A program made the position numbers and the translations under genes. Positions 6,145 through 63,533 of a DNA stretch of 64,000 bases are shown piece after piece. Location of the stretch: assembly GCA_026210745.1 (NCBI GenBank), contig CP110630.1:3658001-3722000 (forward strand). Reading direction: 5' to 3'. The notes under the pieces are model-generated. The model made no database searches, was not told the origin of the DNA, and saw only the letters and a program-made list of their open reading frames with translations. Source of the DNA: Exobasidium rhododendri. Taxonomy: Eukaryota > Basidiomycota > Exobasidiomycetes > Exobasidiales > Exobasidiaceae. Positions within the stretch are counted from its first letter, which is position 1. The number at the start of each line of letters is the position of its first letter.

Positions 6145-7102
6145 TTAAGATGGGAACGTCATGGCTGCTGCTGCTTGCCTAATGGCAAGTGCTTCCGAGT
6201 GACTGAGAGGAGGAGAGCCGGCGTTGTCAAGAACAAGCTTGGCTCGCTTTAGTCTGGAATGAAGCTGATGATGAAAGGACGACCCATTAGATCTTTCCTC
6301 AGCCGATCTTCCGCCCGTCACACCGTTCACTCACTTCCGATGCTGCCTCTTCACCCTCCTCCTTTCTACTCTCTCTGTCAGCCTTCAGCAATAGGAGCTG
6401 CTTCTTCGACGTTTCCAGTTCTCTTTCCTGCTCATCGATAGCTTGCGTCATGGATACGGTCTCCATTGCTTCCGGAAGAAGTAGTGATTCGAGCACTGCA
6501 ATATCACTACTGAAGCCTCCGAGTTCCAATAGTGCAACCTCGTCTCGATCCTCAGCCTCTCCCTCACCTAATCTATCCCCTCGTTCCACTTGCCAACTCA
6601 TGACGCTGCCGGTGATGGACCCGTACGAAGCTGACGCCATACCTGCTCCTAAGCCTACGTTTCTGGAAGCGTGAGGCATCTTTACAGTTGGAGGAACGAG
6701 TGTTTCATTCAGCTTCACCTCCGCCCTACGAAGCGCACTTGTAAGCAGGGAAGATAAGTCCTTTTTGCCTTTGGCGGAAAGCTTTGCCATCATGGGTTGC
6801 GCTGCTTTCCACACAAGCCCGCCTTCATTGACCAGCGACTCCTTCTCCTCGATAGCCAGCCTTCTCCACTTCTTCTTCTCTGCTTGGCTCAAGCCCTTCT
6901 GTCTGTTCCGAGATCTTCTCTCAGGCTCTTCCTCTACATCCTCTTCTTCGTCTCCGTCATCGTCATTATCTTCGTCTTGTGGTGTTGCACGCGCGTGTCT
7001 TTCGAGCTCGTCCTCTGACTGCACTTCACTGCTCTCCTCTTGCTCTATGCTGCTGTCATACTGATCATCCCGTCCCCTCTTGGTTGTCTTACGAGGTGGC
7101 AT
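6145..7102 (-). CDS. Probable CENP-Q (Fta7/Okp1-like) kinetochore protein
   Basis: Exon 1 is 7102-6335 and exon 2 is 6264-6145. The intron has a GTGAGT donor, a CTAAT branch-like site and a CAG acceptor, giving 295 aa. The N terminus is basic then strongly acidic (about residues 15-60). A helical middle follows with a VPP motif (about residue 137). A C-terminal coiled coil starts at LLPEAMETV and leads into IDEQERELE and an LHSRLKRAK tail. The order VPP, LLPE, acidic coiled coil, then LH resembles fungal CENP-Q proteins of the COMA/inner-kinetochore complex. That identification rests on remembered motif layout only and the overall similarity is weak; another nuclear coiled-coil protein is possible. 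It shares a short divergent promoter with the dynein gene. Confidence 0.5.
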
Positions 7103-7394
7103 ACTTGGTCATTATCAAGCCAGCGTCATGTCTTGTGTGTGTGTGAAAGGAGAGCTCGGTTCACAAGCTCTGCATCGCTGTTTACGCCTCTCTGTTGTTC
7201 CAAACGCGTCTTCCAAGCCGTCAACTTCACGTTAAAGGGGAGAGGGGTCTTCGAGTGTCACTTTCGAGCTCTAAATTTACCTGTCGCTTGGCTTGTCGTT
7301 TCCTCTCTCTGGTGACCTGCTTCCTTCCTCGAATCGATATCGCCTGTCAGTACAGGAGGCGTCGGCAAGGAAGATTGTTCCATCGAGTACGGAC

Positions 7395-10300
7395 ATGCCT
7401 GTCTCGACGATCTCGGCGGCGCAGAAGGTGCCAGGAGACTGGGCACCAAGCGCCTACCGAACAGTTGCGCAAGAATTAACGTCGTCATTAGACTTGGGAC
7501 CATCTGAGTCTGAGCTCATCGATTCTCTGGTTCATCTTCACTTTAGCGTCTATGCTCAAGCAGAGAAGCTACGGAAGAGGCAGGGAAGGTCCTTAAAGCT
7601 GGGTCCAAGGAGCTTCTTGGACTTCATCAACCAGTATGTCGGACTGAGTAACGAGAAGAGGGAAGGTTTGGAAGAGGAGCAGAGGCACCTGAATGTCGGA
7701 TTAGACAAGCTGAGGGAAACGGTCAAGGCAGTGTCTGAGCTGCAGAAGAACCTGGCTATTAAGAGAACGCAATTGCAAGCCAAGAACAAAGAAGCCAACG
7801 AGAAATTGAGGCAGATGGTCACAGATCAAAAGACAGCTGAGGAGCAAAAAGCAGCGTCCATTCAAATTCAGAGCAATCTCGAAATTCAGGAGATGGAGAT
7901 CAGCCAGAGGAGAGAAGTTGTGATGGGAGACTTGGCTGCTGCAGAACCGGCTGTACAGGAAGCTCAAGCATCCGTCAGTAATATCAAGAAGCAGCATCTG
8001 ACTGAAGTTCGATCGATGGGAAATCCGCCAGCCCCGGTCAAGAATGCCATGGAGAGTGTCTGCATTGCCCTGGGTCATCGGGTAGACAGCTGGAAAACAG
8101 TTCAAGGTATTCTTCGACGAGATGACTTTATCGCTTCGATAGTAAATTTCGACACTGATCGGCAAATGACAAGGCAAGTGAGGGAGAAGATGAAGAGAGA
8201 CTACCTGAGTCAAGCCGGCTACAATTACGAGATGATCAATCGAGCATCAAAGGCATGCGGACCACTGGCCAAGTGGGTTATTGCACAGGTACAGTATTCT
8301 GAGATACTCGATCGAGTCGGACCGTTGAGAGAAGAAGTCGAATCATTAGAGACGCAAGCACACGAGACGAAGCATCAGGCATCAACGATCGTGGAGATGA
8401 TCGGCGAACTGGAGAATAGCATTGAGAGGTACAAAGCAGAATACGCCGCTTTGATCAGTGAGACGGAAGCCATCAAGAAGGAGATGGAGAGGGTTCAAAC
8501 AAGGGTGGATCGCAGCATACAGTTACTAGATAGTTTGGGATCAGAAAAGGAGAGGTGGGAAGCAGGCAGTCGAACATTCGAAGCGCAAATGAGCACCATT
8601 GTGGGTGATGCGCTTCTATCTGCCGCTTTTCTCACCTATGCCGGTTTCTTTGATCAACAGTACAGGGAGTCGATGTGGCAGGGTTGGACAGCGCATCTGG
8701 AGGCAGCAAACATCAAGTTCAAACCAGAGCTGTCTTTTGCGGACTACCTGTCCACTGCCGATGATAGACTCGGATGGCAGTCGAGGTCACTCCCAGCAGA
8801 CAACTTGTGCACAGAAAATGCAATCATGCTGAAAAGGTTCAAGCGCTTTCCTTTGATCATCGATCCTTCTGGTCAGGCGACGACGTTCCTGAGCAATGAA
8901 TACAAAAGTCGCAAATTGACCGTGACGAGCTTCTTGGACGACGCTTTCCTGAAGAACTTGGAGAGTGCTCTTCGATTCGGCAACCCACTCTTGATACAAG
9001 ACGCCGAGCATCTTGATCCGATCATCAATCCTGTACTTAATGGAGAGCTAAGAAAGACGGGAGGAAGGGTGCTAATACGACTAGGCAATCAAGAGATCGA
9101 CTTTTCACCATCTTTCACCATGTTCCTGTCCACTCGAGACCCTTCGGTGGAATTTACCCCCGACGTGTGCAGCAGGGTGACGTTTGTCAATTTTACCATG
9201 ACACGGGGAAGCCTACAGAGTCAGACGTTGGATCAAGTCTTGAAGAGTGAAAGGCCGGATACGGACAAGAAGCGGACGGATCTGATGAAACTGCAGGGCG
9301 AATTCCGACTAAGACTGCGACATCTAGAGAAGAGCCTGCTAAATGCGCTCAACGACAGCAAGGGCAACATCCTTGACGATGACAAGGTGATCGATACATT
9401 GGAGACCCTGAAAAAGGAGGCGGGAGAAGTGACGACAAAGGTGGAAGAGACGGACGCCATCATGACAGAGGTAGATCAAGTGACCAGTCAGTACATCCCT
9501 CTTTCCAAGGCATGCAGTTCTCTCTTCTTTGCCCTTAATCAACTGCATCTCATCCACCACTTCTACCAGTTTTCGTTGCGCTTCTTCCTCGACATCTTCG
9601 ACTTTGTCTTGCGGCGGAACCCTCATCTGAACGGCGTCAGCGATGCAGGGGCTCGATTGAACATCCTGATGAGGGATCTGTTCTTGTTGGTGTACAAGAG
9701 GACGAGCAGGGCGTTGATGCATCACGATCATATTGTGCTTGCCACCCTTCTTGCGCAGATATGGGCAAAGGAAGGCAACGATCCACACGCCTTGGATGGC
9801 GATGAGTTCGACTTCCTTCTCGAAGGGGGCGACACTATCGCAGTGCCTGCTCATGCGAGTACCTCGACAGTTTTATCAGCAGAACAACGGCTGAAGGTCG
9901 GCTCCTTTATGAGATTGCACTTCTTCAGATCCATCGATGCACATCTGGACGCAAATCAAGACCAGTGGAGAGACTTTCTTACATCCAGCGTCCCGGAAAC
10001 CATCGTGCCACCATTTTGGAAGCAAGACGACGAAGACGAGTCTGCTCTTATCGATGCCGTTCGAACATCTTTGGTGGTCAAGTGCCTCCGACCAGATCGA
10101 GTCGTGCAAGCCGTCGCCTTGCTTGTCAGCACCGTCTTCTCCCTGGACATCCTGAGCGAGACTGCGTATGACTTGCAGAGCATAACCACCGATGAAGTCG
10201 GTCCAGAGACACCCATCGCCCTTTGCTCTGTGCCAGGCTTTGATGCCTCATATCGAGTCGATAGTCTGGTGAAAGCGAGCAACGCGAAATGCACATCGGT

Positions 10301-12174
10301 AGCAATGGGATCGCAGGAAGGGTTCCAGCTGGCTGATCAAGCAATCACAACGGCGGCCAGAACAGGCTCGTGGGTATTGCTCAAAAACGTGCACTTGGCC
10401 CCTTCCTGGTTGTCACAGCTGGAGAAGAAGATGCTGCACCTGAATGCGCATCGCAACTTCCGACTATTTCTCACCTGCGAAACGAACCCAGTCATCCCCG
10501 TCAACTTCCTGCGAGCTAGTCGAATCTTGATGAACGAGCCGCCGCCTGGTCTAAAGGCAAACATGCTGGACTGTCTTCGGGGAATCAGTACAAAGCGTCT
10601 GGAGTCATGTCCAGTCGAGACGGTGCGCATCTTCTTCTTGCTGGCCTTCTTCCATGCGACGCTGATCGAAAGGCTGAGGTACACACCACTTGGTTGGAGT
10701 AAAGTGTTTGAGTTCAACGACTCGGATGCAGAGACGGCCCTGAACACGATCGAAGGATGGGTACAGCGAGTGTCCAAGGGTCGAAGCAACATTGACCCTG
10801 GTGCTGTTCCTTGGGATGCGCTCAAGGCCTTGCTCAAGATGAGTGTCTACGGAGGAAAGATTGACAACGTGGCAGATCAGCTGCTACTCGACAGCTTCGT
10901 CGACAGTATTTTCACCCCTGCTGCCTACGAAAGCACCTTCCAAATGGTCGAGGGGCAAGATGAGGAAAGTCGCTTCCTCGTTGCACCAGAGGGCACTCGA
11001 ATGGAAGTGTTCGTCGACTGGGTCAACAGACTGCCAGACCAGCAACCACCTCAATGGCTGGCTCTTCCTCCAACAGCCGAAAGGGTCATTGCCACAGCAC
11101 AAGGTACTGCCCTCCTTAATAAGCTGATCCGGATGAGGCAACTGTCGGATGAAGAAAGCGACGCAGAGCTAGTCTCCGCTCCTTCCGCCGCCATCATTGC
11201 TGCTGCTGCTGCTGCCGCCGCCGCCGCGACCTCTTCCAGTGGTGAGGCAGCCAAGAGCTGGCAGTCCGTGCCTCAATGGATGAAGACACTCCACTCGAAC
11301 GCGCAGGAGTGGCTCAAGGTGTTGCCTGTAGAGCTGAATAAGCTGAAAGGATCTTCGGATAGCATCACCAATCCGCTATTCCGATTCTGGGCTCGAGAGT
11401 ATCGAATCGGCGTCGGACTGCTCCACTCGATACGAGCAGACCTGCAAGAGGTTTCATCCGTTTGCACGGGCGAGAAGCGCCAGACGAATCACAATCGCAG
11501 TCTACTGAATGACTTGGCAAAAGGAATCGTGCCTCTGACATGGCGGAAGTACACGATTAGCAGGTCAATGACACTGAATCAGTGGATATTCGATCTGCAG
11601 CTACGGCTGAAACAATTGAATTTTATTGCAAGTGAGAATGCGGCCACTACTCGATTCGAGGTGTTTGCAGTCAATCTGGGGCTGCTCTTCGTCCCCAGCG
11701 CTTACCTGACCGCCACCAGACAGTCGATTGCCAATCGAAACAAGATCAGTCTCGAACACTTGTCGTTGCAGTTGTCTGTTGCCGACGGCGGACGATCGCT
11801 CAATGGCTTTGCGATAGAAGGTGAGTATGTGTGTGTGAACTGTTACGTGATTGTGTGAAGGTGAAACTCGCTCGTACAGCTCTACTGACGTCGTGACTCT
11901 TCTTCTTCTCGCAGGTCTTAAATTGCAAGGAGCGATCTGGACCGGCTCTCACCTCGAGCTGAATGACGGCAGCACGACCGAGCTGGAACCGAGCAGCTTG
12001 ATCTGGCTCGAAACAGTCTCGCCATCGACGCTACCAGTGGACAAAGGTGTGCCTCTCACGGTCTATCTGAATGCAGACCGGAGTGTTTCGCTATTTTCGA
12101 TTCATCTAGCTGCATCGCACGGCGTAAAGGCCTCGATGATTGCCAAACGGGCTGTGGCTCTTCGCGCTGCCTGA
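7395..12174 (+). CDS. dyn2: Cytoplasmic dynein heavy chain, C-terminal half (split motor, Dyn2 type)
   Basis: Two exons, 7395-11820 and 11915-12174, give 1561 aa. The first in-frame ATG is at 7395. The open frame extends slightly upstream without an ATG, and the next gene starts divergently at 7102, so no N-terminal motor half is attached. The protein begins in the C-terminal subdomain of AAA4 (FLDFINQYV near residue 75). It then has the stalk coiled coils (about 85-200 and 330-430) flanking the microtubule-binding tip (VRSMGNPPAPVK). AAA5 carries DPSGQATTFL and STRDPSVEF. AAA6 and the linker to the C terminus carry VPGFDASYRVD, KNVHLAPSWL, GWSKVFEF and YGGKIDN. The C-terminal domain is completed by exon 2 (LKLQGAIWTG). 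In U. maydis, Dyn1 (P-loop AAA modules) and Dyn2 (stalk and C terminus) are separate proteins that assemble into one motor. The Dyn1 partner is not in this window. Confidence 0.93.
11199..11228 (+). repeat. GCN repeat encoding ten alanines inside the dynein gene
   Basis: Mixed GCT/GCC/GCG codons encode ten consecutive alanines between the AAA6 region and the C-terminal domain of the dynein half-protein. A Ser-rich stretch follows. This looks like a lineage-specific low-complexity loop in frame, not a frameshift. Confidence 0.8.
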
Positions 12175-14858: not shown

Positions 14859-17800
14859 ATGACTGCTCAAGCTGTGCGTCCATCTTCATCTCTTCTTCGC
14901 CTCGTCAATTTCCCTCTTCGCTCCCGCCGCCCGTCGATGGTAGCAGCTACATACAAGAAGAGACACACTTCTAATTCTCTAGCCACTGAACGAACAATCC
15001 TGCCAATTAGAGCGATCGTGCGACAAAGTAGAAGAAATCTTGGTTTCGCCAGCCTTGCGATATCTGCCTCTGTCTTCGCTGTGAGTTGCAGTCAATTTTC
15101 GACGCAAGCTGCTGCTAGACCTTTATTGCCGTCTTTCTCATCTTCGCCCTACAACGTCCTGTGCTTGCTTCAACAGGCTGTTGGCTTTCGTTACTTGCTA
15201 AATCATCCCACGCAACTCAACTTCTGTCGCCAAATGTCTAGTCAATCGAATCAACCGCCTTCGAGCAAATTCGCTCCCGGTTGGGATCCGATCAGTCGTC
15301 CTTTCCCGACCACACATCGCTCTGACGATTCCCAAACATACAAATCGAAAAAGGAAGGGGAAGTCAAGGTCGAAAAGCCTTACTCTTGGCTAGAGATTCC
15401 GCCTTCGGAGTCGCAAGAGACAAAGGATTGGGTCACTGCTCAAGCTGACTTCACCAACGCTTATGCTAAAGGGTGCACAGACCGTGAAGAAATGAAGAAT
15501 CGCTTGCAAGTCAACCTGAATTTTGCTAGATTCAGTTCACCCAGTCGTACTGGCAGGGGAAAAGGGCAGACAGGAAACTATTACTACAGCTACAACAGCG
15601 GTCTAGACCCTCAAGCCACCTACTTTCAAGCTTCCAACGACGATCTACTTGAAGCCGAGAAGAGCAACTACGCTTCGCCACCCGGCCGAAAGTGGTTCGA
15701 CCAGAATGTGAGTTTGACCAGTGTGTTGCACCCGTGTATTTTGGAACACTTTGCTTATCACCACTTTAACAACACCTCTCCTGCCCTTGACAGCTCTTGA
15801 GCAGCGATGGTACCGTTGCCATTTCTTCTCTTTCTTTCTCCAAGTCCGGCAAATTTGTCGCCTACGGCATCTCAAAGTCAGGCTCCGATTGGTCTACAAT
15901 CTACTTTCGAGATACTTCGAAACCATTCGTCGATGCTGCTGCTGACGAAAAGAGCTCTGCTGCAGGTGGTCCTGATCGACTAAGCGACAAGCTTGAATAC
16001 TTAAAGTACAGTCATCCGGTATGGACGCACGATGATGAGGGGGTCTTTTACATGCGCTTTCCCGAACCGACTTCCAAGAGGACGAAGCAGCAAACGCAAG
16101 AAGCAGACACGTCTGAAGGCGATGCAAATGAAGCAGATCATGGTACTTCTACAGATGCTAGTCAACACGCTGCCTTGTTCTATCACAAAATGGGAACAAG
16201 TCAGAAGGACGATGTCTTGGTCGTTGCCAGGGATGAAAAGGTAGTCACCAGCATGTTCTCATCGTCAATCTCAACGTGAGTCTGATTCAGCGGCGTAGCA
16301 GGCGACATTAGTGAGGCTTATCGTATCTCCTCTCCCTCCCGCCTGCAGAGATGGAAAGTGGTTGATTGTCTCGCACAGCGTGGACACCGATACAAAGTCG
16401 AGGACGTACGTTGCGTCATTGTATCAACCAATCGGGCCTGCAATGAAGTGGATCTGCCTTGTTCCCAAATTCGAATATCAGCTTTCTTTCATCATCAATA
16501 AGGGCGACCAATTCTATTTTGTATCGAACAAAGATGCACCCAACTCCAAGATTGTCCGTGTTCAGATTGACGCAGCTCAAGCAAAGACGGTCCATCACAT
16601 TACCGAATTGACGGAAGAAGCTCAGTATGAAGATGTCATCAAGGAAGATAGCGAGGCGCCTGTTCGCGATGTCACAATCGTCAACAACGACAAGCTTCTC
16701 ATTGTCTATTCCAGGGACGTCAAGGATGAACTGTGGCAATTCGAATTACAAAGCGGAACGAAGCTGCAGAGGCTCCTGCCCGACTTTGTTGGCACGATCA
16801 ACGGCGTCAGTGGTCGATGGCTGGACGATGAAGCGTATGTCACGGCAGCCTCCTTCATCAATCCAGGCATCGTCACTCGTCTGACTTGGTCGCCGGACAG
16901 CAGCACAAAGGCGGAACCGAAAGCCACTCTTCACAGGACTGCCAATGTGAAGGGGATCGATCCGACGTTGTACAAGAGCAGGCAAATCTTTGTGACTAGC
17001 AAGGATGGCACAAAGGTACCCGTCTTTCTGACGCATCGGAAGGATACAAAGTTAGACGGCACAGCTCCAGCTTGGCTTTACTTCTATGGCGGTTTCGGCA
17101 TCTCACTGCATCCAAGCTTTTCTGCGTCTTTGATGACGTGGATCACTGCGTACGGTGGAGTGCTGGTCTGGGTGAATGCTCGCGGTGGAGCTGAATACGG
17201 TGACAGTTGGCACGACGCTGGTCGACTCTTGCACAAACAAAACACCTTTGACGACGTGCTGTCGGTTGCAGACTACCTTGTCGAGGAAAAGATTGCCAAG
17301 AAGGGTAAGATCATCGTCAACGGTGGCAGCAATGGAGGCATGGGAGCCATGGCTGTTGGTAATCAAGCGCCTGAAGGGTTGCTGGGAGGCGTCGTTGCCG
17401 AAGTAGGTGTTCATGATATGCTACGATTCATGCATTTTACTGCTGGAAAGTACTGGGTGGCCGATTACGGAAACCCAGAGGAAGATCCCGCCATGTTTGA
17501 TTACGTCTACAAGTATAGTCCACTACATTCGGGTGAGTTGGAAAAAGTCGATACTGAGAGATAGAGTCCTCATATGTTGTGCTCATTCGTCTGATCATTC
17601 ATTGGGCTCCTACACAGTCAATGCTAGCAAGGTGTATCCGACGGTGCTGCTGATGAGTGGCGACCACGACGATCGAGTATCTCCTCTGCATACTTTTAAG
17701 ATGGCGGCCGAATTGCAGCATCGTCTTCCAAAGTGAGTCTCATCTCGAGGGGGAAGGAGGGGGCCAAGTGAGACACAGTGTAGCTCTTCCTGAACACCTC

Positions 17801-21365: not shown

Positions 21366-23414
21366 CTATAAACTCTTCTCGCCCTGTAGCGAGGGGCTGC
21401 CTGTGGACGAGTCTTCTGGTATCCTCTCTCCTCCTGCATTTGAACGTGTCGAGGTGTGTATTGCCTTCTCTTCTTGACTGCTGAACTTACTTCTGCCTAG
21501 TACGCCTAGGATACTGTGGCGCCCTTCGATTGGCGGTACAAATGCAACGATCAAGAGTGCTACGAAGATCCAAATGATGCTAACGACCACCCAACCTCGG
21601 AAGAAGGGCAACGAGAAGACGTAGTACGCACCGTACATGCCGAAAGGCCACACTATCCAAAAGCCGAGGAAGATCGCTAATCCCAGAACACCGGCAATCT
21701 TACTTACTTTTGCCATGTAGGCTTCTTGCTCGGGTGTGAACGTATCGATCTCTCTGGCCTTCTCCTCTTGTATACTGGAGCTGTCATCGTCGTCACTGAT
21801 GAGCTTAATTGAATTGAAACGCTCCCATGAGAATGGCTCCCCAGGGAACACGAATGAGATCAAAGGCGAAAGGATAGCTGGAATTGCAAAGGAGGCGATG
21901 TTGCCGTACATGCAGCTGATCAGATTCCCCGTCGTCGTAACGTCGATCACTCCATCGCCAAGGTACCATGACGTGGAGATCCAAGTTGCAAGACCGCACG
22001 CTAAGCCGACCAACGGTGAGATAATCGCAGCAGCCTTGGTTTGACGATTCCAGAGTACCGTGAGAGATATGGTGACCAGTCCTGGGCAAGTGATGACACC
22101 AAGGAAGTACAATGTCCAGGTCAAGGACAATCCGGCATAGTAGAATCCGACGCTGACGGCACTTCCCACAATAGCGAAGCCGATGCAAGAAAGTCGCGAG
22201 ACGGTTATGATGGAACGCTCTGAAGCCTTGGGGTTGATGTATGTGTGGTAGATGTCCGAACTGACGATGGAGGAGACGGCAACGATCTGTGCGGAAGAAG
22301 TCGACGTGACGGCCATGAAGATGACAATGACGACTGCAACAGCACCGGCATTGCCCACCGTAGCAAGAGCAGCATAAGGAAGAACAAGACCGTTGTTATT
22401 TTCAGCTTCACTGAGAGCCCTTCCATGAACAGGCCAGTAAGGTGAGTTTGTGAATCCAAGGCCGACACCTACGAAACCCATCACGGTGCCTAGAGACCAA
22501 GGTATTCCGAAGTAGAGTATTCCACCGAGCATGTAACCTGGTGCTGCGGCCGTGACGTCTGCACTGAACGCTTTCTGCCAGTAGGATGAGTCCAACAACA
22601 CGAGACCAAAATTGCCAAGCGTGTGAACCGTTCCAAAAGCGATAGCATTCCGGCTTGACATGGTCAAGAAGGAACCTTCATGATTTCCAGCGATCGGACT
22701 GATCTTTCCAGCAGCTTCCACTAATCTGTAGAGGTTATCGACTGATCCGATCGCTTCGCTGGTAAGTGCTTTCAAGATGAGGTAGATGCAGATGATAAGG
22801 AGGGCGACAGTGTGAGCCCAGTCGGTAATGAAGCTAGCCCGTAATCCGCCAGTGATTGTGTACAGGCAAACCCCCACGGGCAATAAAAAGATACAAGCGA
22901 CCGTGTTCATCCCCGTTAGAGCTGAGATAGCTGCACTAGCACCTAGAGCCATGTTGACGTAGGCAATGATGTTGGTTGCAAGACACAGGACCATATAAAC
23001 CAAATGAGCCAGCGTTCCATATCTTGCTTTCACCACTTCAAGCACCGTGTGGGCATGAGGCACTCTCCTCTTACTCTGAATGGCAATCAAGGAGAAGAAA
23101 CAGATCTGTACAATGCACCCGGCGGAGAAGAAGTAGGAGCCTGCCAATCCGTAGTTATAGGTGATCGCTGTACTCGAGAGGAGAGCCGTTGACCATGCCC
23201 AGCTGCTTATGACTGCCGTGGCGGTCAGGCCAGTGCCAACTTTTCTTCCAGCCGTGGCAAACGTTTCGAAATGGCTGTTGTCTTCACCGGTTGACTGTCG
23301 TAAGGCCCGTGTGATGAAGATCATTGCTACGGCAAAGACTAGCCCGAATCCGACGACGACGCCGTATCCCCACCCTTGACTCAGAGGTGCCGGTATACTC
23401 TGTGATGCACTCAT
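21366..23414 (-). CDS. DUR3: Urea/polyamine transporter, DUR3-like (sodium:solute symporter family)
   Basis: A single-exon gene of 682 aa with a clear ATG at 23414. About fifteen hydrophobic helices are visible. DUR3-type motifs are SSWAWSTALLSSTAITYNYG (about residues 69-88), SKRRVPHAHTVLEVVKARYG, the ITGGLRASFITDW segment, the LLDSSYWQKAF segment and MAVTSTSSAQIVAVSS. DUR3 proteins take up urea, and in yeast also polyamines, by proton symport at the plasma membrane under nitrogen limitation. The C-terminal tail is hydrophilic and Ser-rich with a QEEKA segment, a possible site of regulation. It is one of the few intronless genes in the window. No urea amidolyase gene lies nearby. Confidence 0.92.
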   Translation of the reverse strand: MSASQSIPAPLSQGWGYGVVVGFGLVFAVAMIFITRALRQSTGEDNSHFETFATAGRKVGTGLTATAVISSWAWSTALLSSTAITYNYGLAGSYFFSAGCIVQICFFSLIAIQSKRRVPHAHTVLEVVKARYGTLAHLVYMVLCLATNIIAYVNMALGASAAISALTGMNTVACIFLLPVGVCLYTITGGLRASFITDWAHTVALLIICIYLILKALTSEAIGSVDNLYRLVEAAGKISPIAGNHEGSFLTMSSRNAIAFGTVHTLGNFGLVLLDSSYWQKAFSADVTAAAPGYMLGGILYFGIPWSLGTVMGFVGVGLGFTNSPYWPVHGRALSEAENNNGLVLPYAALATVGNAGAVAVVIVIFMAVTSTSSAQIVAVSSIVSSDIYHTYINPKASERSIITVSRLSCIGFAIVGSAVSVGFYYAGLSLTWTLYFLGVITCPGLVTISLTVLWNRQTKAAAIISPLVGLACGLATWISTSWYLGDGVIDVTTTGNLISCMYGNIASFAIPAILSPLISFVFPGEPFSWERFNSIKLISDDDDSSSIQEEKAREIDTFTPEQEAYMAKVSKIAGVLGLAIFLGFWIVWPFGMYGAYYVFSLPFFRGWVVVSIIWIFVALLIVAFVPPIEGRHSILGVLGRSKFSSQEEKAIHTSTRSNAGGERIPEDSSTGSPSLQGEKSL

Positions 23415-24021: not shown

Positions 24022-25788
24022 CTACTCTTGAGGGAGATACTACGGGAGGGAAGCAAAGGAAGACACGCAGGAGTGTGTGTGTCTGTGCGTCAGAAGGACG
24101 AGTGACAATCAATGTAGCACGGAATGGGACTAGCGACTCACCTTGTAAGGATTCATGATATTGTCCGGATCGAAGAGATGCTTGATATCCTTCATGATCG
24201 CAACAGAAGTGCTCGACTTGCTGTAACCGATCTTCTCGCCTTTCATCCTTCCCAAGCCATGCTCAGCAGAAATGGAACCGTGAACTTTCTCGATCCACTC
24301 GTACACCCAAGGCTCCAGTACAGCTTCAACTTCATCGTCGAAAGCAGCTGCCACTACATTCAGATGCAGATTTCCATCCCCAATGTGGCCGTAGCCTACT
24401 ATTTCCAATACCTTCTTGTCTTTCCCAAGCAACCCCTTTTCTTGAAAACGTTTTCTCACGTCTTCAACTAGTTCGTTCATCTTGTCAACTGGCATACTGA
24501 CGTCGTACTTGTATGTTTTACCCAACTTTCCCGCTGCTTCTGGGATAGACTCTCGAAGTGACCAAAGAGACTGGAGCTGCGTCTCGTCTTGCGCCAGTAC
24601 ACCATCTACGATGGCTTCCGATTCCATCAGTTCTTCCAGCAGCTCCGACAATTTCTCGTCGTCGTGCTCCTTCCTGCTACCACTTGTCTCGATCAAGATG
24701 TAAAAGGGGTGCTTTTCCTGGAAGGGATCCTTCACCCCGGCCGTGGCGTGGGCCTTTACCATTTGCATGCTCTGTGTGTCAAAGAATTCAAAGGCAGATA
24801 GAATCTCCCCACAATGAGACTTGACCCTCGAAAAGACGTCTTGAATGGCATCAAACGACTCTACGGCAAAGACCGCGACGTTGACGGCGGTTGGTCGTTT
24901 TGGCGTAATGATTGAAATTCCTGTGATGAGGCCGATGGTGCCTTCGCTACCAATAAAGAGCTGCTTCAGATCAAATCCAGTGTTGTCTTTCCGCAAAGTA
25001 CTGAGACCGTCTAAGATGTTTCCATTGGGCAGCACCACTTCCAAACCTAATACGTTGCCATGCAAGCTACCGTACCGCAGAAATCGCAGACCTCCTGCGT
25101 TTGTGGCAACATTGCCTCCCAGATGACAACTTCCCTTCGCTCCAAGATCCAAAGGCATCATGTACCCCTTCTCAGCTACGTAGTTATCCAGCGACTCTAA
25201 TATGCACCCTGCATCGCAAACGAGCGTCCCACTGACATCATCGAAAGAACGGATCTTGTTCATCGCACTCAAGTTGATGATGACTTCATCCAACACTGGC
25301 ACACCCCCTCCCACCAGGCCGGTGTTGCCTCCCTGCGGAACGATGGCTAGCTTGCGCTCTGCACAGTATTTGACAATATCCGAGACTTCCTTTGTCGTCT
25401 TCGGCTTCAGGACACACGAAGACTTGCCATGATACTTGTTCATCCAATCATTGTTGAACATGTCTAATTCCGCCGACTCGACTGGATTTGGTGTAGCCTT
25501 GGTCTTTATGGTGGTCAATATTGAAGTCTCTGGAGTGGACAGAAGCGAAGCGAACTTTTCAATGTCCTTTTCGGTCAGTTTGTGGTGTGATGCGATGGGA
25601 GTGGGTGCCTCTGATGCGAAACGTCGAACCTGCTGACGAAGTGATGTGGGGTTCACCCTGGAGGCTGATGCTTCAGGCTGCTGGCGGGCGGCATATGAGA
25701 AAGCCCGCCGCCTTGAACTAGCTAGTATACTCGTCCTTCCACACTGCTGCAGAGGCAAGCTTCGATACGATCTCGCAGCAAGCGACAT
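24022..25788 (-). CDS. DLD2: Mitochondrial D-2-hydroxyglutarate / D-lactate dehydrogenase (DLD2 type)
   Basis: Exon 1 is 25788-24142. A terminal exon of only 18 nt (24039-24022) follows a 102-nt intron and completes the C terminus as NPYK-YLPQE, giving 554 aa. Reading through the donor instead would end at VSR, which does not fit the family. The N terminus (first 60 residues) is rich in Arg and Ser and lacks acidic residues at its start, as in a mitochondrial presequence. The FAD-binding PCMH domain includes PQGGNTGLVGGG (about 151) and LGGNVATNAGGLRFLRYGS. The C-terminal FAD-oxidase fold has the GYGHIGDGNLHLNV motif and SAEHGLGRMK. These motifs fit D2HGDH/Dld2 rather than classic Dld1. It oxidises D-2-hydroxyacids and passes electrons via FAD. 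It is divergent from the haspin gene. Confidence 0.92.
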
Positions 25789-54949: not shown

Positions 54950-57081
54950 TCACGAGCTAGATGTAATGGTCCCCGTAATGAGATTCTCGGCAGTCGCGAA
55001 AGCTAAAGCAAAATTTGTTCTGTACACCAGTCCATCCTTGTTGACAACCTTTCCGGTTGCTAGGCGAGCTTTCCACGAATCCTGTGTATACTGTGTCGAG
55101 AACCCAATACGAGACAGAGTGCCGTACGAAGCGAAGATTTGAGCAGACTTGAAACCGTCGCTCCAGCCACAAGCAGTAGCAAAAGCAGTAGTGGCGGTCG
55201 CCCTCTTTTCGGTCTGAACCACTTTGTTGGCTCGAGTTGCAACGCTACCACCGTTGACAATCACGTCCAAGTCGCTTCCACTGGCGATCTCGTCCAGGTC
55301 AAGCAGGGAAGTCGAGGGCATTACCAATCCAACTTCGGCTGGGTCCACCACTTCGGCATCTTTGTTCACCAAGTTCACCTTGGCAGTAGAAATGGCCGCG
55401 GTGGTGTTGGTCGCAGCTGGCAGTGTGATGGCGGCAAGGCTCGTCTTTAAGGCGGTGATCAGCCTTGTGCTCTTTGTGCTGGTGACGTTGAAGAGCGCTG
55501 ACGTATTTTGTGCAAGACCCCAACTGTCAAACGATGTTGGCAAGTACTTGCCCACGGCTGCTTGGAAACACCAACCTCCGTTGCTTGCACAGTTTTCCAT
55601 CTCCCAACTCCAGAATATCCAACTTGCTTCCGTCGTTCTGTAGACTACTTCTTGATCGGCACAGAAATTGTATTGATCGAGCGACTTGTTAGTCGAGCTG
55701 GCCAACGAGCTTGGTGCCAGTGCGCACGACCACTCTCCGATGACAACGTTCCGCCTGGCAATCGCAGATTCAGCTGCCAGAGTGGTCTTGATGCTTCCAG
55801 TGATGGCCTTAATGTGACCCTTTGCCGAAAGACTGGTGTCCTGAGAAGTGTAGACGTAGTACGAGTGATGGTCTTGCACAACGAAGTCTGTTCGAGTAGC
55901 AACGAAAGCGGCGCCTTGATCGAGATTGAAGGCATCGTGAAAGTACAGAGGAATAGTCGAGGAGACGTTACGCATAGCATTCATTGTCTTGGTGTACCAT
56001 GGCCATAGACTGGTCCTATCGACGGGTTCGTTGAGAAGCTGGATGCCGACGACGTTCGTGACATTGGCCAGTTGACCAGTGATCCAGACTAAGAGATTGG
56101 TGGTCAGGTTCATATTGTACGTGCTGAAGAATTCGATGTTACCATCCGATAGGCCAGAATGAGCCTGACCGTTCTGGGAGCCATAGGCGCCGTGCAGATC
56201 GACCAAGACACCAATCTTGTACTTCTCGGCCCAGTTGATAGCACGAGCAACATACCGCCAAGAGTAGTAGTATACGTCGGCATAAGCCTCAAAGGGCGAA
56301 TTCTGGGTAAAATAAGGACCGGCTGACCAGTATCCAATGGGAAGTCGGACAGTATTGATACCCATACTTGCCATCTTGATAAAGTCAGCTTCCGTGATCC
56401 AAGTGTCCCAATGCTTTTCCATGTACGCGGTGGCATTGCTCACACCTGCCGCTGACTGACCAAATCCATCGAGAACATCGTACTCTGCTTGGTTACCCCC
56501 TGTCGAGCACGAGAAGAAATTGCTTGCCATCCATCCCTCTTGCACGAACCTTTGATACAGGGAGAATGAGAAGAGATTAACGTCTGAGCGCACGTACCCG
56601 TACTTTTGGTTCAGACTCACCAAGCACCCAAATTGACACCTTGTTGTTGTCTGTATCGATAGATATTGGCCATCACGGGGTCGAAAGCATCAAATGTAGG
56701 AGCTGGCAAAGCACTCCACCCTCCAACAGGAGTGTACTCTTGCTGAATAGGGCAACTACCTGGTCCGATCTTGGCAGTTGACTTGAAGGTGTTCGCACTA
56801 GATGCATTCGTGACAGATTCAGGAACGTATAGCGTTGAAGGAACACCCCACTCTGAGATACTCTTCAAGTCTGGTGCATCTGCGGACTGTGTAATGAATG
56901 GTTGTTGCCCTACAGCGCCACCTGAAGAGATCATTTGATTAGCTGTTGTGTTTGCGTTCGATACTGACGAGGTCGTCGAATTAGTCGGCAGCTGTGGAAT
57001 AGGCTTATAATTTGCAACGACCAGCGAAAGAGCACCGGCCAGAGATGTGAGACCCGAAGAGTCCCTTGCGAAGAGCTGCAT
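54950..57081 (-). CDS. Glycoside hydrolase family 5 protein, exo-beta-1,3-glucanase-like
   Basis: Exon 1 is 57081-56621 and exon 2 is 56549-54950, giving 686 aa. The ATG at 57081 begins a signal-like segment (LTSLAGALSLVVA); longer frames upstream have no ATG. A Ser/Thr/Asn-rich region (about 30-120) precedes the catalytic domain. The domain opens at GVNLGAWFVQEGWMASNFF across the splice. It includes INTVRLPIGYW, VDLHGAYGSQNG, the acid/base Glu in LLNEPVD, HDAFNLDQG, and the nucleophile Glu in VVIGEWS, followed by WIFWSWEME. A C-terminal extension of about 190 residues (Thr/Ala-rich, then a short domain around CGWSDGFKSAQIF) is unusual for simple exoglucanases. The role is probably wall beta-glucan remodelling. 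Confidence 0.88.
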
Positions 57082-58767: not shown

Positions 58768-61645
58768 TCACGCTCCTTCGAGACCTTCTTCCTCCTCTGC
58801 CTTTTTGAGCTCAAAACTGGCCCTCTTGACCGTGCTGGCATTCGTCGGTCCTTCTGGCTTCTGACTCGCTTCCAGTGTATCTGATTTTGTCTTATCCGAG
58901 GAGAGCGGCAGTATAGTGTCCTTCCCACTCACATCGAATGCATTGCTCCTCCATTCATTGCGCACAATCTCCTTTCTGCCTGTTCCATCGACTTGTTTCT
59001 TCATCCATCGCACTGCGTGACTGTCTTCAATGGACTTTCCTATTCCACCTAGATTACTACCACCGTCATCGTTTGCAAAATCAATCTCGATCGTACCGGC
59101 GTGTTCGTGATACTTCTTCAACAAGTCGCGCAAGTCTGCCATCTGTCTCCTCATATCCTCCATCGTCAACTTGTCCTTTTGCACATCTTTATTGAGTCGG
59201 ATAGCCATCAGCTTTAAGTCCAATTCTTGCAATCCAATCTTCACTCCAACGCCAATAAAGTGCCGCAAGATTCTTCTCGTCAAGTAACTATTAGCCACCC
59301 CATTTGCTATGCTGTGCATTACACGATGATTACTTTCATGCACTTTCAACTTGAGCGTTCCCAGCTTTGCATTGACTCTCTTCACAATGAAGCAATGGTG
59401 ACTAAGATCCTTGGGTATTTCTATGTATATGCTAAGGCCAAATTGGGCTATCGAAAGATCAGCAATCCCGTGGTCGTGAAACTTGAATCCGAATCGAGTA
59501 GTAATGGCAAACGCCAAATCGTGTATTCGAAGCGACATTCCTTTGAACTTCAACTTAAAAGCATGAGAATGCGTCGAGTCCTTCATTTTCTTAAAGTCGA
59601 AATGCACGTCGTTGCTCATTTTGAAGTCGAACATGTCCGGTAACAAGTATCGAAGCTCGACAGCAATATTTTCAATGATCAGATCGAAATCAGGATGAAG
59701 ATACTTGATTCTTGGGATAGGCACTACTCCAAATTTTGCAAAGAAGGCGGGCAAGACCTGCTCCACAACATCTTGCAGTAGTCGTAGATCAGGCAGATGG
59801 AAGCCGTCCTTTCCAAAAGTAAGATCAGTGAGTAGGTCTCTGGTAGAAGCAAGGATACCTCTCAACAATTCATCCTTGCTGAGTGCATCCACAAACGACA
59901 CACTTTCTTTGATCAGCTTGACGATATTTCTTTGATATTCCCCTTGCAGACCACGAAATCTGGCAATCAAGTCACGCATTCCTTCCTCTGCTTCCTTTTT
60001 CAGAATGAAACCTTCCTCTAGTAGGCAGCGACGCAGATGATGATCGGCGTCCTTCCAAAAGGATGCAATCGTCTCATCGTCCTTGACACCGACAGAAAGA
60101 GATTTCGCCGTTTGAAGAATAGACTGCAACGAATGACCTTGCGCAAAGTTCTCCACCAACTTTATCAAAGGTTCGAAGGCTGACGAGAGTGCGCTGTCCA
60201 GCGAAGTCGACGGCAATGCCACCTTCTCTTGCGTGAGATGTGCCATTCTCTCGATACGCCCGATGAACCATTCAAATGCTTCCTGGTAATCCTTACTTCC
60301 TTGACAATCTACAACGAGCTTCTTACTCCGAGCAAGTAGTCGCTCTCGCCTTTCCTTTGTCCAGGCTTCCCTCATCGAATCTTTCGCAGTCTCCTTTGTG
60401 GTTCGAAGGACATTTGAGATTGTATCGGCAGGCATCAAGCTCAACTTTTGATTGGCCACTGCTAACATTTGAGCTGCATCCAGGAGATCGCTTGTGGATA
60501 GCAACGCATCCGAGCCATTCACACTTGGGATGACCCCGTTGGGGGCTTCTACCCTCGTAGGTGCTTCGCCTTCAGTACCAGAAAGTGCGACAATGATCTT
60601 CGCGGGGATCCTGCCAGAAGCAATCTCACTCCTCATTTGCTCCAGATCGTCTTGTCCTTTTGCAATTCTTCCAGCTTGCAACCCTGCTTGTCTCTTCAAT
60701 TCCTCCAACGCCGGAACTGGTCTACCATCACCGACTTCCTTTCGAAGAGAGTCAAGGGAAATTTCACCACCAGCAAACGCGGCCGAGAGCTGGTCTGCAA
60801 GGCTGGACATGGCTGGCATACCCGATGCTACACCTTGCGCAGCCTCTTTGAGAGCCTCCAATCTGGTGCCGTCAGTGTTGCCCGTCTGCTTTGCTTTGCT
60901 GCCAATTTGATTTACATTACCGTTGGCGTTACTTGATGGAAAGCTATTCGCTGCTAGCTTCTGAGCTCGAGCAGAATTCAGTGCTTTAAGAGCCACATTC
61001 TGGAAGCTCCCAGTAGAGCTCTTCACCTGCCCCATCTGAATACGAGCTTCTTCAATCGAGGTGCCGGTCGCTTCGTCGATCACACCGGCAAACATGTAGC
61101 CAAGATCGGCAACTATATGGCGAAGTTCTGGCTGAACGATTGCAAGTCTGAAGAGGGTACGGACATGCTTAGAGGCTTTCAAAGGGATAATTTCGAGTTA
61201 TTAGGGCAAGGCGCTTCAGGACAACTCAATTTCACGATCGGCTCTCACCTGTGACAGTGTCTCGTTGAATCACATTGCCGACAGCACTCATCTTTGCCTT
61301 GGCAGTAGAATTTCCCTCCAGCTCTGCCTTTTCCGTCTTTTGCGCATCTTTCTGATTGGCCCCCTTGCCCCACTTGAACTTCAATCCATCCTTCCTTAGC
61401 TGGCCAGCTGCGCCTCTAACTTTCCACAGAAATTGCTGCAATTCTTCCTCTCCATTGCGACGCTCGACGATCTTTTGGAGGTATACAAGTATGGATTGGA
61501 AGTCGGAAACGATCTTCTCTCCCTGTTTAGAGAGTTTGTCTGTGGGTGGAAAAGATGAGAGGACCTGCTCGAGGAAAGTATTCGTCTGCTCATTTGTCGG
61601 AAAGGCGCCTTCCTGTAGTCCAGCCAGTGCATCTACCAGCGTCAT
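58768..61645 (-). CDS. HAM1-like protein (HAM1_N/HAM1_C, formerly DUF5923/DUF4449)
   Basis: Exon 1 is 61645-61249 and exon 2 is 61175-58768, in frame, 934 aa. The ATG at 61645 (MTLVDALAGLQEGAFPTNEQ) fits the N-terminal motif of the family. That motif continues SFPPTDKLSKQGEKIVSDFQ and EELQQFLWKVRGAAG. After the splice come KHVRTLFRLAIVQPELRHIV and ADLGYMFAGVIDEA. The C-terminal half holds LHPDFDLIIENIAVELRYLL, then FKLKFKGMSLRIHDLAF and LGTLKLKVHESNHRVMHSI, resembling lipid-binding (TULIP-like) folds. HAM1 proteins are fungal-specific and, in a Cryptococcus study I recall, were linked to cell fusion and capsule. Assignment is by remembered motifs. Confidence 0.65.
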
Positions 61646-62018: not shown

Positions 62019-63533
62019 ATGGCGACGACGGCTCGAGAAGTGACTGACCCTGCCTCAGGACTGCGTATAAGGGCAGCAAAAAACGCGGCATTCGATGGTG
62101 ATGGACCAGGAGAAGAACGAAGAAGCGTCAAGGTTACGAAAGAGGAGGTGATTGACACCGATGAATGGCCTCTGGACTGGATGAAACGGGTGCTGGCTAG
62201 AGCGCTGTGGAGTCAACAGTACTTCTGGGTCGTAGCTGGACTTTGCATTGCAGCCGATACGCTACTCACCACCATCATCTTGCTCGCAGTGAAATGTGAG
62301 TCTTGCCATTCGTAGTGGCCAAATGCTCCTGCTGACGCTCTTCCTTTTTCCCCTTCTCTTGACATGCTCAAAGACACGGAAATCGACTTCACTACCTACA
62401 TGCAACAGGTCCAGCACTACTTGGATGGGGAGAGAGTCTATCACAAGATATCTGGCGACACAGGCCCATGCGTCTATCCGGCGCTACATCTCTACCTTTC
62501 CTCCTTTCTTTCTCATGCGACGAAGGGTGGAGCGGACATCTGGACTGGACAGCTGATCTACTTTGCTCTTTACATCGCGTGTCAAATCGCAGCCATGGCC
62601 ACCTACAAAGCCGCTCACATTCCACCGGTCATGCTCCCTCTACTCATCTCCTCCAAGCGGCTTCACTCGATCTTTGTCCTGCGACTCTTCAACGACTGCT
62701 GGACCATGACCTTCTTCTACGTTGGCGTGTACTACATCTGCAAAGGAAAGTGGAGATTGGGCTCTACCTTCTACAGCCTGGCGTTGGCAGTGAAGATGAA
62801 CATGCTCCTCTACGCACCAGCACTGGCCGCCATCTATCTTCGAGCCTTGGGACTGCAAAGGAGTGTTGTTGAAGCTCTTCGAGTCATCTTCATTCAAGTG
62901 CTTCTAGCAGTGCCGTTCTTGCGAGAAGATGCAAGGTCGTACCTATCTTCTGCATTCAATCTGTCGCGCTCCTTCCTATACGAGTGGACCGTCAATCTCC
63001 GCTTCCTCGATGAAGAGACCTTCTTGGACAAGCGGGCTGCCAGGTATCTTCTCTTAGGCCACGTAGTCCTTTGCGCAATCTGGATGGTCTTTCGGTGGAC
63101 TGGCGTCTCCAAAAAGGGCCTCCAATGGCTGCAGGGCAACATACGAAGACCTACGCAAAGCACATCGAAGCTTCGCAGACCTAGTGGTCGCTTCATAGTC
63201 ACATCACTCTTTACTTCTAACCTGATCGGCATCACCTTTTCTCGCAGTCTTCACTATCAATTCTACTCTTGGTACGCTCATCAGATTCCTCTTCTACTCT
63301 ACCTTTCATCTTTGCCTCGTCTACTCAAGGTGATCATACCGTTTTGCATTGAGTCGGCCTGGAATACCTTTCCCTCTACTTCATCGTCCTCACTCCAACT
63401 ACTTGCGTGTCATGTCGTGCTCTTGGCGGGTCTGTGGAGAGCCAGAGAAGACGACACAACACGGGACGAGGGTCGAAGGGACGAAGAGGAAGTAGCAAAA
63501 GAAATAGCAGCAGAGTGGGACAGGCCCAACTAG
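62019..63533 (+). CDS. ALG3: Dol-P-Man:Man5GlcNAc2-PP-Dol alpha-1,3-mannosyltransferase
   Basis: Two exons, 62019-62295 and 62374-63533, give 478 aa. A hydrophilic N terminus (to about 65) precedes a first helix (YFWVVAGLCIAADTLLTTII). ALG3 motifs follow: K-YTEIDFTTYMQQV across the splice, GDTGPCVYPALHLYL, SKRLHSIFVLRLFNDCWTM, LALAVKMNMLLYAPA, and SLHYQFYSWYAHQIPLLLYL. The enzyme, in the ER membrane, adds the first alpha-1,3-mannose on the lumenal side during N-glycan precursor assembly, using dolichyl-phosphate mannose. The tail is Glu/Arg-rich. No ER retrieval motif is evident (ends EWDRPN). Confidence 0.94.

Follow-up and report, generated by a model that had tools for sequence, protein, structure and literature searches.

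How does a dynein motor whose heavy chain is encoded by two genes complete its ring of six AAA+ modules, and what becomes of the module that the break divides? These questions are raised by a gene at 7395-12174 (+) of the 64,000-nucleotide stretch of contig CP110630.1 analysed here (the window), from Exobasidium rhododendri, a plant-gall fungus of the Exobasidiomycetes within the Ustilaginomycotina. The gene encodes a 1561-residue C-terminal half of a cytoplasmic dynein heavy chain and is very probably orthologous to dyn2, in a cytoplasmic dynein made of two chains. The identity of the product as a dynein half and the split into two genes, both proposed in an earlier note on this DNA, are confirmed for E. 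rhododendri. A split within the fourth module, AAA4, is already known, Ustilago maydis Dyn1/Dyn2 being its prototype, and the window gene adds one genome to this pattern. Unlike the split itself, the altered state of the broken module was not found in print: the AAA4 Walker A lysine is replaced by arginine in all 24 listed AAA4-split N-terminal halves (N-halves), and the divergence of these dyneins from others is module-specific. Our literature search returned no paper reporting an AAA4 Arg in split dyneins, although Straube 2001 may mention it.

The open frame of the window gene spans 7293-11858, and comparison with relatives favours the ATG at 7395 as the start. A GT..AG intron at 11821-11914, read from the DNA, links exon 1 to an exon ending in the TGA at 12172-12174. 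The product corresponds to the public E. rhododendri protein P0001 (CBS101457_001601), with 100% identity over 99% of the query and equal length (1561 residues). The divergent gene that the earlier note saw starting at 7102 is a real open frame, separated from the ATG by 292 bases. The locus, with the evidence for each part in brackets, comprises:

6299-7102, minus strand: divergent open frame of 267 amino acids without a Pfam match (open reading frame list, Pfam scan)
7103-7394, no strand: shared intergenic stretch upstream of the ATG, 292 bases (open reading frame list, DNA)
7395-11820, plus strand: exon 1 of the dyn2 orthologue (open reading frame, DNA, P0001, conserved start)
11821-11914, plus strand: GT..AG intron, 94 bases (read from DNA, in agreement with P0001)
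11915-12174, plus strand: exon 2, with the stop codon at 12172-12174 (DNA, P0001)
7440-7643, plus strand: remainder of AAA4 (small subdomain), AAA_8 profile 190-258 (Pfam match below cut-off; model helices 18-28 and 35-63)
7608-7610, plus strand: sensor II Arg72 of AAA4 (alignment)
7689-8678, plus strand: stalk with microtubule-binding domain (PF12777)
8775-9431, plus strand: AAA5 (PF12781)
9174-9176, plus strand: AAA5 arginine finger, Arg594 (motif)
10203-10526, plus strand: AAA6 P-loop domain region D6 (PF03028)
10626-11078, plus strand: dynein AAA lid (PF18198)
11256-12171, plus strand: C-terminal domain, split by the intron (PF18199 for the first part, the rest from P0001)

Arg594 of AAA5 we take to be the finger that would face the AAA4 pocket. 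Pfam searches with the translation of 7395-11855, the final 12 codons of which are intronic, matched AAA_9 (E-value 5.4e-79), MT stalk (3.6e-43), AAA_lid_11 (9e-32), Dynein_C (6.3e-29) and Dynein_heavy (3.4e-28). AAA_8, the family of AAA4, was matched only at profile positions 190-258 of 259, and this match (E = 0.0072, 16.1 bits) lies under the cut-off of 25.6. The domain order is the end of AAA4, the stalk and microtubule-binding domain, AAA5, AAA6, the lid and the C-terminal domain, which bears out the description in the earlier note of a free-standing C-terminal motor half; the tail, linker and AAA1-AAA4 are absent upstream of the gene and are encoded on another contig, C2. The best Protein Data Bank sequence matches are cytoplasmic dynein 1 chains, which rank above axonemal and dynein-2 chains. 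An AlphaFold model of residues 1-711 (mean predicted local distance difference test score 77.4, predicted template modelling score 0.53, low confidence at 1-14 and 537-588) displays helices at 18-28 and 35-63 and a long helix from residue 71 into the stalk, and a fold search with this 711-residue model likewise gave dynein-1 as the top matches. Among the protein matches listed, the best named relatives are from Exobasidium, Acaromyces, Tilletia, Ceraceosorus and Violaceomyces, several being named cytoplasmic dynein heavy chain 2.

Searches of the 17.6 Mb genome gave one match each for MT, AAA_9, AAA_6, AAA_8 and DHC_N1 (counts that are lower bounds), and the five families resolve into two complementary half genes. 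The MT and AAA_9 matches are the window gene, while AAA_6, AAA_8 and DHC_N1 are carried by the N-half, a single open frame of contig C2 with its main exon at 639449-648265, which is public protein P0121 (CBS101457_003246, 3139 amino acids). No intact dynein heavy chain was found in this five-family search of the assembly. Matches to the dynein light intermediate chain (DLIC) and dynactin p150 are present in the genome, and the viral contigs searched held no relatives. The parallel with U. maydis Dyn1/Dyn2 drawn in the earlier note is thus upheld, with both halves found, the break within AAA4 and an N-terminal heavy chain gene that ends at the AAA4 large subdomain. Two findings that the note had named as fatal to its proposal were considered. 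An intact heavy chain that would make the window gene a truncated duplicate was looked for and not found, and a transcript joining the halves by ordinary splicing is very unlikely because they lie on different contigs (C1 and C2) and the N-half has its own stop.

The two genes share out the AAA_8 profile, positions 2-184 being on the N-half and 190-258 on the window gene. The N-half terminates in ...SPALFNRCVLLFCFG followed by a stop, at a point corresponding to approximately yeast residue 2919 (extrapolated, residue 333 of the aligned piece being yeast 2914); Table 1 of PMC4047620 places the end of the yeast AAA4 large subdomain at 2916. As the N-half stops with the final strand of the AAA4 large subdomain and the window gene opens with the small subdomain, the break lies at the hinge between them. 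The earlier note was therefore correct in placing it inside AAA4, but not in placing it within the small subdomain. The same break is seen in relatives. Just past SPALFNR, 23 of the 24 listed AAA4-split N-halves terminate; the remaining one, P0242, is a differently ended and probably mispredicted model. On the other side of the break, a GDW motif occurs at most about 17 residues from the first residue in 34 of 38 listed C-terminal halves (C-halves) with an untruncated N terminus, a set from which P0026, P0038, P0040, P0041 and the rows after P0042 were excluded. P0002, P0003 and P0006 are longer C-half models with an internal MPV at the conserved start position, and the P0009 model is longer still. 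In Ceraceosorus bombacis the two halves (P0013 and P0141) may share one scaffold, since both records give a longest contig of 834,941 bases.

Three independent splits of the dynein heavy chain are described for the Basidiomycota by Brunsch et al. (2015, PMC4540427), where the one that falls inside the fourth AAA module is presented as conserved in Ustilaginomycotina. The U. maydis pair represents the same two-gene heavy chain; according to Straube 2001, as cited in PMC4540427, loss of either gene is lethal and both proteins occur in one complex. The U. maydis sequence is outside our listings, and the AAA4 P-loop comparison below excludes it. Listed C-halves with the same start derive from Acaromyces, Tilletia, Ceraceosorus, Tilletiaria, Violaceomyces and Sporisorium, and N-halves with the same end from Tilletia, Tilletiaria, Microstroma, Jaminaea, Ceraceosorus, Sporisorium and Violaceomyces. 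Schizophyllum commune (Dhc1/Dhc2) and other Agaricomycetes likewise have a two-gene heavy chain, but there the split precedes the motor, at about residue 1180 as given in PMC4540427, and in these fungi, unlike the AAA4-split dyneins listed, AAA4 keeps its Lys and normal conservation. Unsplit cytoplasmic dynein 1 (human, yeast, Dictyostelium) displays, in a single chain, the domain order obtained when both E. rhododendri halves are joined.

To define the state of the broken module, two listings, each of the best 120 matches, were combined into 213 proteins numbered P0121-P0333, with groups assigned by source names and placed at order level. Twenty-four proteins were taken as AAA4-split N-halves in which the module is present; P0241, P0243, P0244 and P0246, models without the AAA4 P-loop, and the Wallemia protein P0299 were excluded. 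The E. rhododendri P-loop reads GVSGSGRT, the Arg codon being CGA (L005:2302-2304, read from the DNA), and thus lacks the canonical Walker A Lys. Arg occupies this position in every one of the 24. In the alignment of 185 other proteins the site is Lys in 172 and a gap in 13, so that Lys is present in 172 of 172 with a letter at this site; it is also found in 27 of 27 further first-listing proteins with a recognizable AAA4 P-loop, and the human dynein chains aligned differ from E. rhododendri in having Lys. The remaining pocket residues of E. rhododendri (Walker B, sensor I, sensor II and the neighbouring Arg finger) are those of a canonical site. Across the family the Walker B Asp and Glu are kept in 24/24 N-halves and the sensor I Asn in 23/24 (P0137 being without it). 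In the 38 C-halves, sensor II is Arg in 37, and the residue of the AAA5 finger is Arg in 36 and Lys in two. The P-loop Lys of AAA1, AAA2 and AAA3 is retained in all 24 N-halves. Other Ustilaginomycotina differ from E. rhododendri by ordinary sequence divergence, and five of their N-halves (P0128, P0129, P0130, P0131 and P0137, from Microstroma, Jaminaea and three others) have additionally lost the P-loop Thr. Counts for the Lis1 connector were not used, the pattern being loose and leaving 6/24 proteins unmatched.

Divergence was then compared by module. The sample, hand-picked for spread before computing, took in 15 of 24 N-halves, 20 of 38 C-halves and, from P0121-P0333, 44 of 189 other proteins; the 44 comprise 18 Agaricomycetes, 10 Pucciniomycotina, seven Tremellomycetes and nine Mucoromycota-type fungi. 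Mean identities between split proteins and other groups, and among the other groups, are:

AAA4 large subdomain: split to others 0.63-0.64, among others 0.89-0.95
AAA4 small subdomain: split to others 0.44-0.47, among others 0.64-0.72
AAA1: split to others 0.70-0.73, among others 0.77-0.83
linker: split to others 0.59-0.64, among others 0.65-0.71
tail: split to others 0.58-0.59, among others 0.62-0.65
AAA2: split to others 0.67-0.70, among others 0.69-0.73
AAA3: split to others 0.83-0.84, among others 0.82-0.85
stalk: split to others 0.65-0.70, among others 0.64-0.72
AAA5: split to others 0.74-0.79, among others 0.74-0.79
AAA6: split to others 0.57-0.62, among others 0.58-0.66

The AAA4 large subdomain is the most conserved of the ten regions among dyneins not split in AAA4, whereas AAA2, AAA3 and AAA5 show nearly no drop in identity between split and non-split proteins. 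For each protein, the identity of the AAA4 large subdomain to the others minus that of AAA3 ranges from −0.35 to −0.09 in the 15 split proteins and from +0.03 to +0.09 in the 44, with no overlap. Positions that are at least 97% invariant in the others and carry a different residue in 90% or more of the split proteins number 22/150 in the AAA4 large and 5/30 in the AAA4 small subdomain, compared with 8/184 in the linker, 6/153 in the tail, 1/162 in AAA1, 1/118 in the stalk, 1/72 in AAA6, and 0/125, 0/164 and 0/143 in AAA2, AAA3 and AAA5, respectively. Five of the 22, the Walker A Lys included, have changed to one identical residue in 15/15 split proteins, a uniformity that suggests, at the level of sequence, selection on a new state. 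The AAA4 small subdomain is also 21 residues shorter in split C-halves, the spacing being 27 in 36/38, compared with 48 in 179 and 44 in 22 of 271 other proteins (68 were unmatched by the pattern). The split-group stem relative to total tree length, from single FastTree estimates that carry no support values, is 0.31/3.29 for AAA4 large, 0.92/10.84 for AAA4 small, 0.29/8.93 for the tail, 0.27/14.97 for AAA6, 0.18/11.08 for the linker, 0.15/13.0 for AAA2, 0.072/7.97 for the stalk, 0.047/4.53 for AAA5 and 0.021/3.33 for AAA3; in the AAA1 tree the split group was not recovered as a single branch. As the split proteins form one lineage, these changes belong to one stem and not to repeated events. 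Split proteins share a mean identity with one another of 0.71 in AAA4 large and 0.87 in AAA3; for AAA1, AAA2 and AAA6 the values are 0.73-0.75, and because 0.71 is close to these three, AAA4 behaves as an average module after the burst.

According to PMC4047620, an AAA+ module holds its nucleotide between its two subdomains, large and small, and receives an arginine finger from the module that follows; the AAA4 site would thus be put together from parts of two chains. Chain 1, from contig C2, would supply the tail, linker, AAA1-AAA3 and the AAA4 large subdomain, with Walker A, Walker B and sensor I of the pocket; chain 2, the window gene product, would supply the AAA4 small subdomain, stalk, microtubule-binding domain, AAA5, AAA6 and the C terminus, with sensor II and the AAA5 arginine finger. 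The chains would associate and thereby close the six-module ring. AAA4 would not cycle through hydrolysis; holding a nucleotide or a closed shape, it would act as the joint between the chains, and AAA1 and AAA3, with their intact P-loops, would drive and gate the motor. A non-cycling joint is in our opinion the most likely working of AAA4, although we advance it tentatively. With similar reserve we propose that the ring of Ustilaginomycotina dynein may be held by an AAA4 nucleotide clasp, acquired through the Walker A Lys-to-Arg replacement and the burst of change in both subdomains, such that the motor walks without AAA4 gating. Complex formation in E. rhododendri, the nucleotide state of AAA4 and the order of events are inferred. 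In yeast, PMC7683685 reports that blocking AAA4 nucleotide binding (Lys-to-Ala) stops movement, whereas blocking hydrolysis (Glu-to-Gln) only slows dynein, from 110 to 89 nm/s; for Dictyostelium the same source quotes a loss of about 60% of gliding speed when AAA4 binding is blocked. A nucleotide that is kept but not cycled would thus be compatible with movement. The AAA5 linker-docking residues, matched to yeast by alignment offset, are kept in 30/30 rows, 17 of them split C-halves, and their retention, together with the uniform Arg and the intact Walker B, favours a held nucleotide over an empty site.

Several observations weigh against such a clasp. The P-loop Thr, replaced by Ala in four and Gly in one of the 24 N-halves, argues for weak nucleotide binding, and the PS-I surface motif, strictly kept in 13/24 split proteins compared with 42/44 others, fits decay. 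The smaller drops in AAA1, the linker and the tail indicate that change was not limited to AAA4. The split and the Arg coincide once, an unreplicated association; Malassezia and U. maydis proteins lie outside the listings, and the evidence for the presumed two-chain motor of E. rhododendri is genomic. Some of these points, with the loss of Lys in 24/24 and the strong divergence of both AAA4 subdomains, would also be expected if AAA4 were dead and usually empty under relaxed constraint, the ring being held by protein contacts and compensated by changes elsewhere in the motor. This is a serious possibility, but a doubtful one, given that the replacement is uniformly Arg and not a variety of residues, that Walker B, sensor I, sensor II and the finger are nearly fully kept, that the AAA5 docking residues are unchanged, and that identity within the clade shows no free decay of AAA4 at present. 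The retention of the other catalytic residues is consistent with a working AAA4 ATPase that uses Arg for Lys, the divergence then reflecting a refitting of the interface between the chains. A Lys-to-Arg change in a P-loop usually cripples hydrolysis, and the otherwise invariant Lys of the 172 and 27 comparison proteins also makes this unlikely.

Two further explanations question the split itself. Trans-splicing of the two RNAs into one heavy chain, for which no supporting evidence was found, is highly improbable, as the N-half has its own stop, the C-half its own conserved start, and for U. maydis Brunsch 2015 (PMC4540427), with reference to Straube 2001, describes the halves as two proteins that interact. 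Nothing speaks for the window gene being a truncated copy of an intact heavy chain gene, or for a misassembly, and either is hardly credible in view of the single match per module, albeit a lower-bound count, and the identical break in many relatives.

Might breaking a module by itself relax it? Wallemia, whose heavy chain is also encoded by two genes and broken inside the motor, provides an independent split for comparison, although from one sequence. The Wallemia mellicola N-half, P0299, stops in the large subdomain of AAA1, past Walker B and with an intact Walker A; PMC4540427 words the Wallemia split as one between AAA modules one and two, a position that differs from the end of this model. 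Identity of the P0299 AAA1 piece to other groups is 0.85-0.87, as opposed to 0.89-0.93 in three computed pairs of other groups, and for the same piece the AAA4-split group and Agaricomycetes share 0.80. As Lys and most of the AAA1 conservation are retained, breaking a module need not spoil it, weak as one sequence is and although AAA1 of the AAA4-split group has itself changed somewhat, and relaxation through the break alone was rejected. A bypass via the linker-docking site of AAA5 was likewise rejected, the docking residues being kept.

Twelve of the 13 gaps at the Walker A Lys arise because dyneins not split in AAA4 are without exactly the six residues VSGSGK (P0245, P0249, P0250, P0251, P0253, P0259, P0263, P0267, P0284, P0295, P0298 and P0325), 11 of them from Rhodotorula, Sporobolomyces or Rhodosporidiobolus and one from the Tremellales. 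A real loss of the P-loop was set aside here in favour of a probable annotation artefact of the protein models, because gene prediction could take the missing codons for an 18-base GT..AG intron, and because of two models for Rhodotorula toruloides one, P0284, shows the gap and the other, P0285, does not. If real, the gap would be a separate P-loop loss in unbroken AAA4 modules, and the link between split and Arg would be weaker.

Split-dynein fungi represent a natural experiment on the role of AAA4, which is altered and less conserved in the 24 N-halves although the U. maydis genes are reported, via PMC4540427, to be essential. Single-molecule work indicates that yeast dynein must bind ATP at AAA4 in order to move, yet the split N-halves carry Arg, and how these motors work is a testable question. 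These fungi also inform on how a two-chain ring can arise from a covalent AAA+ ring when no interaction domain is added and, if the clasp is true, a regulatory ATPase would have been converted into a joint between two polypeptides.

Elsewhere in the window, four of ten open frames scanned were without a Pfam match; other frames gave matches to the families of prolyl oligopeptidase (16311-17564), sodium:solute symporter (21366-23414), FAD-linked oxidase (24130-25788), GH5 cellulase (54950-56623), HAM1-like (58768-61182) and ALG3 (62364-63533).

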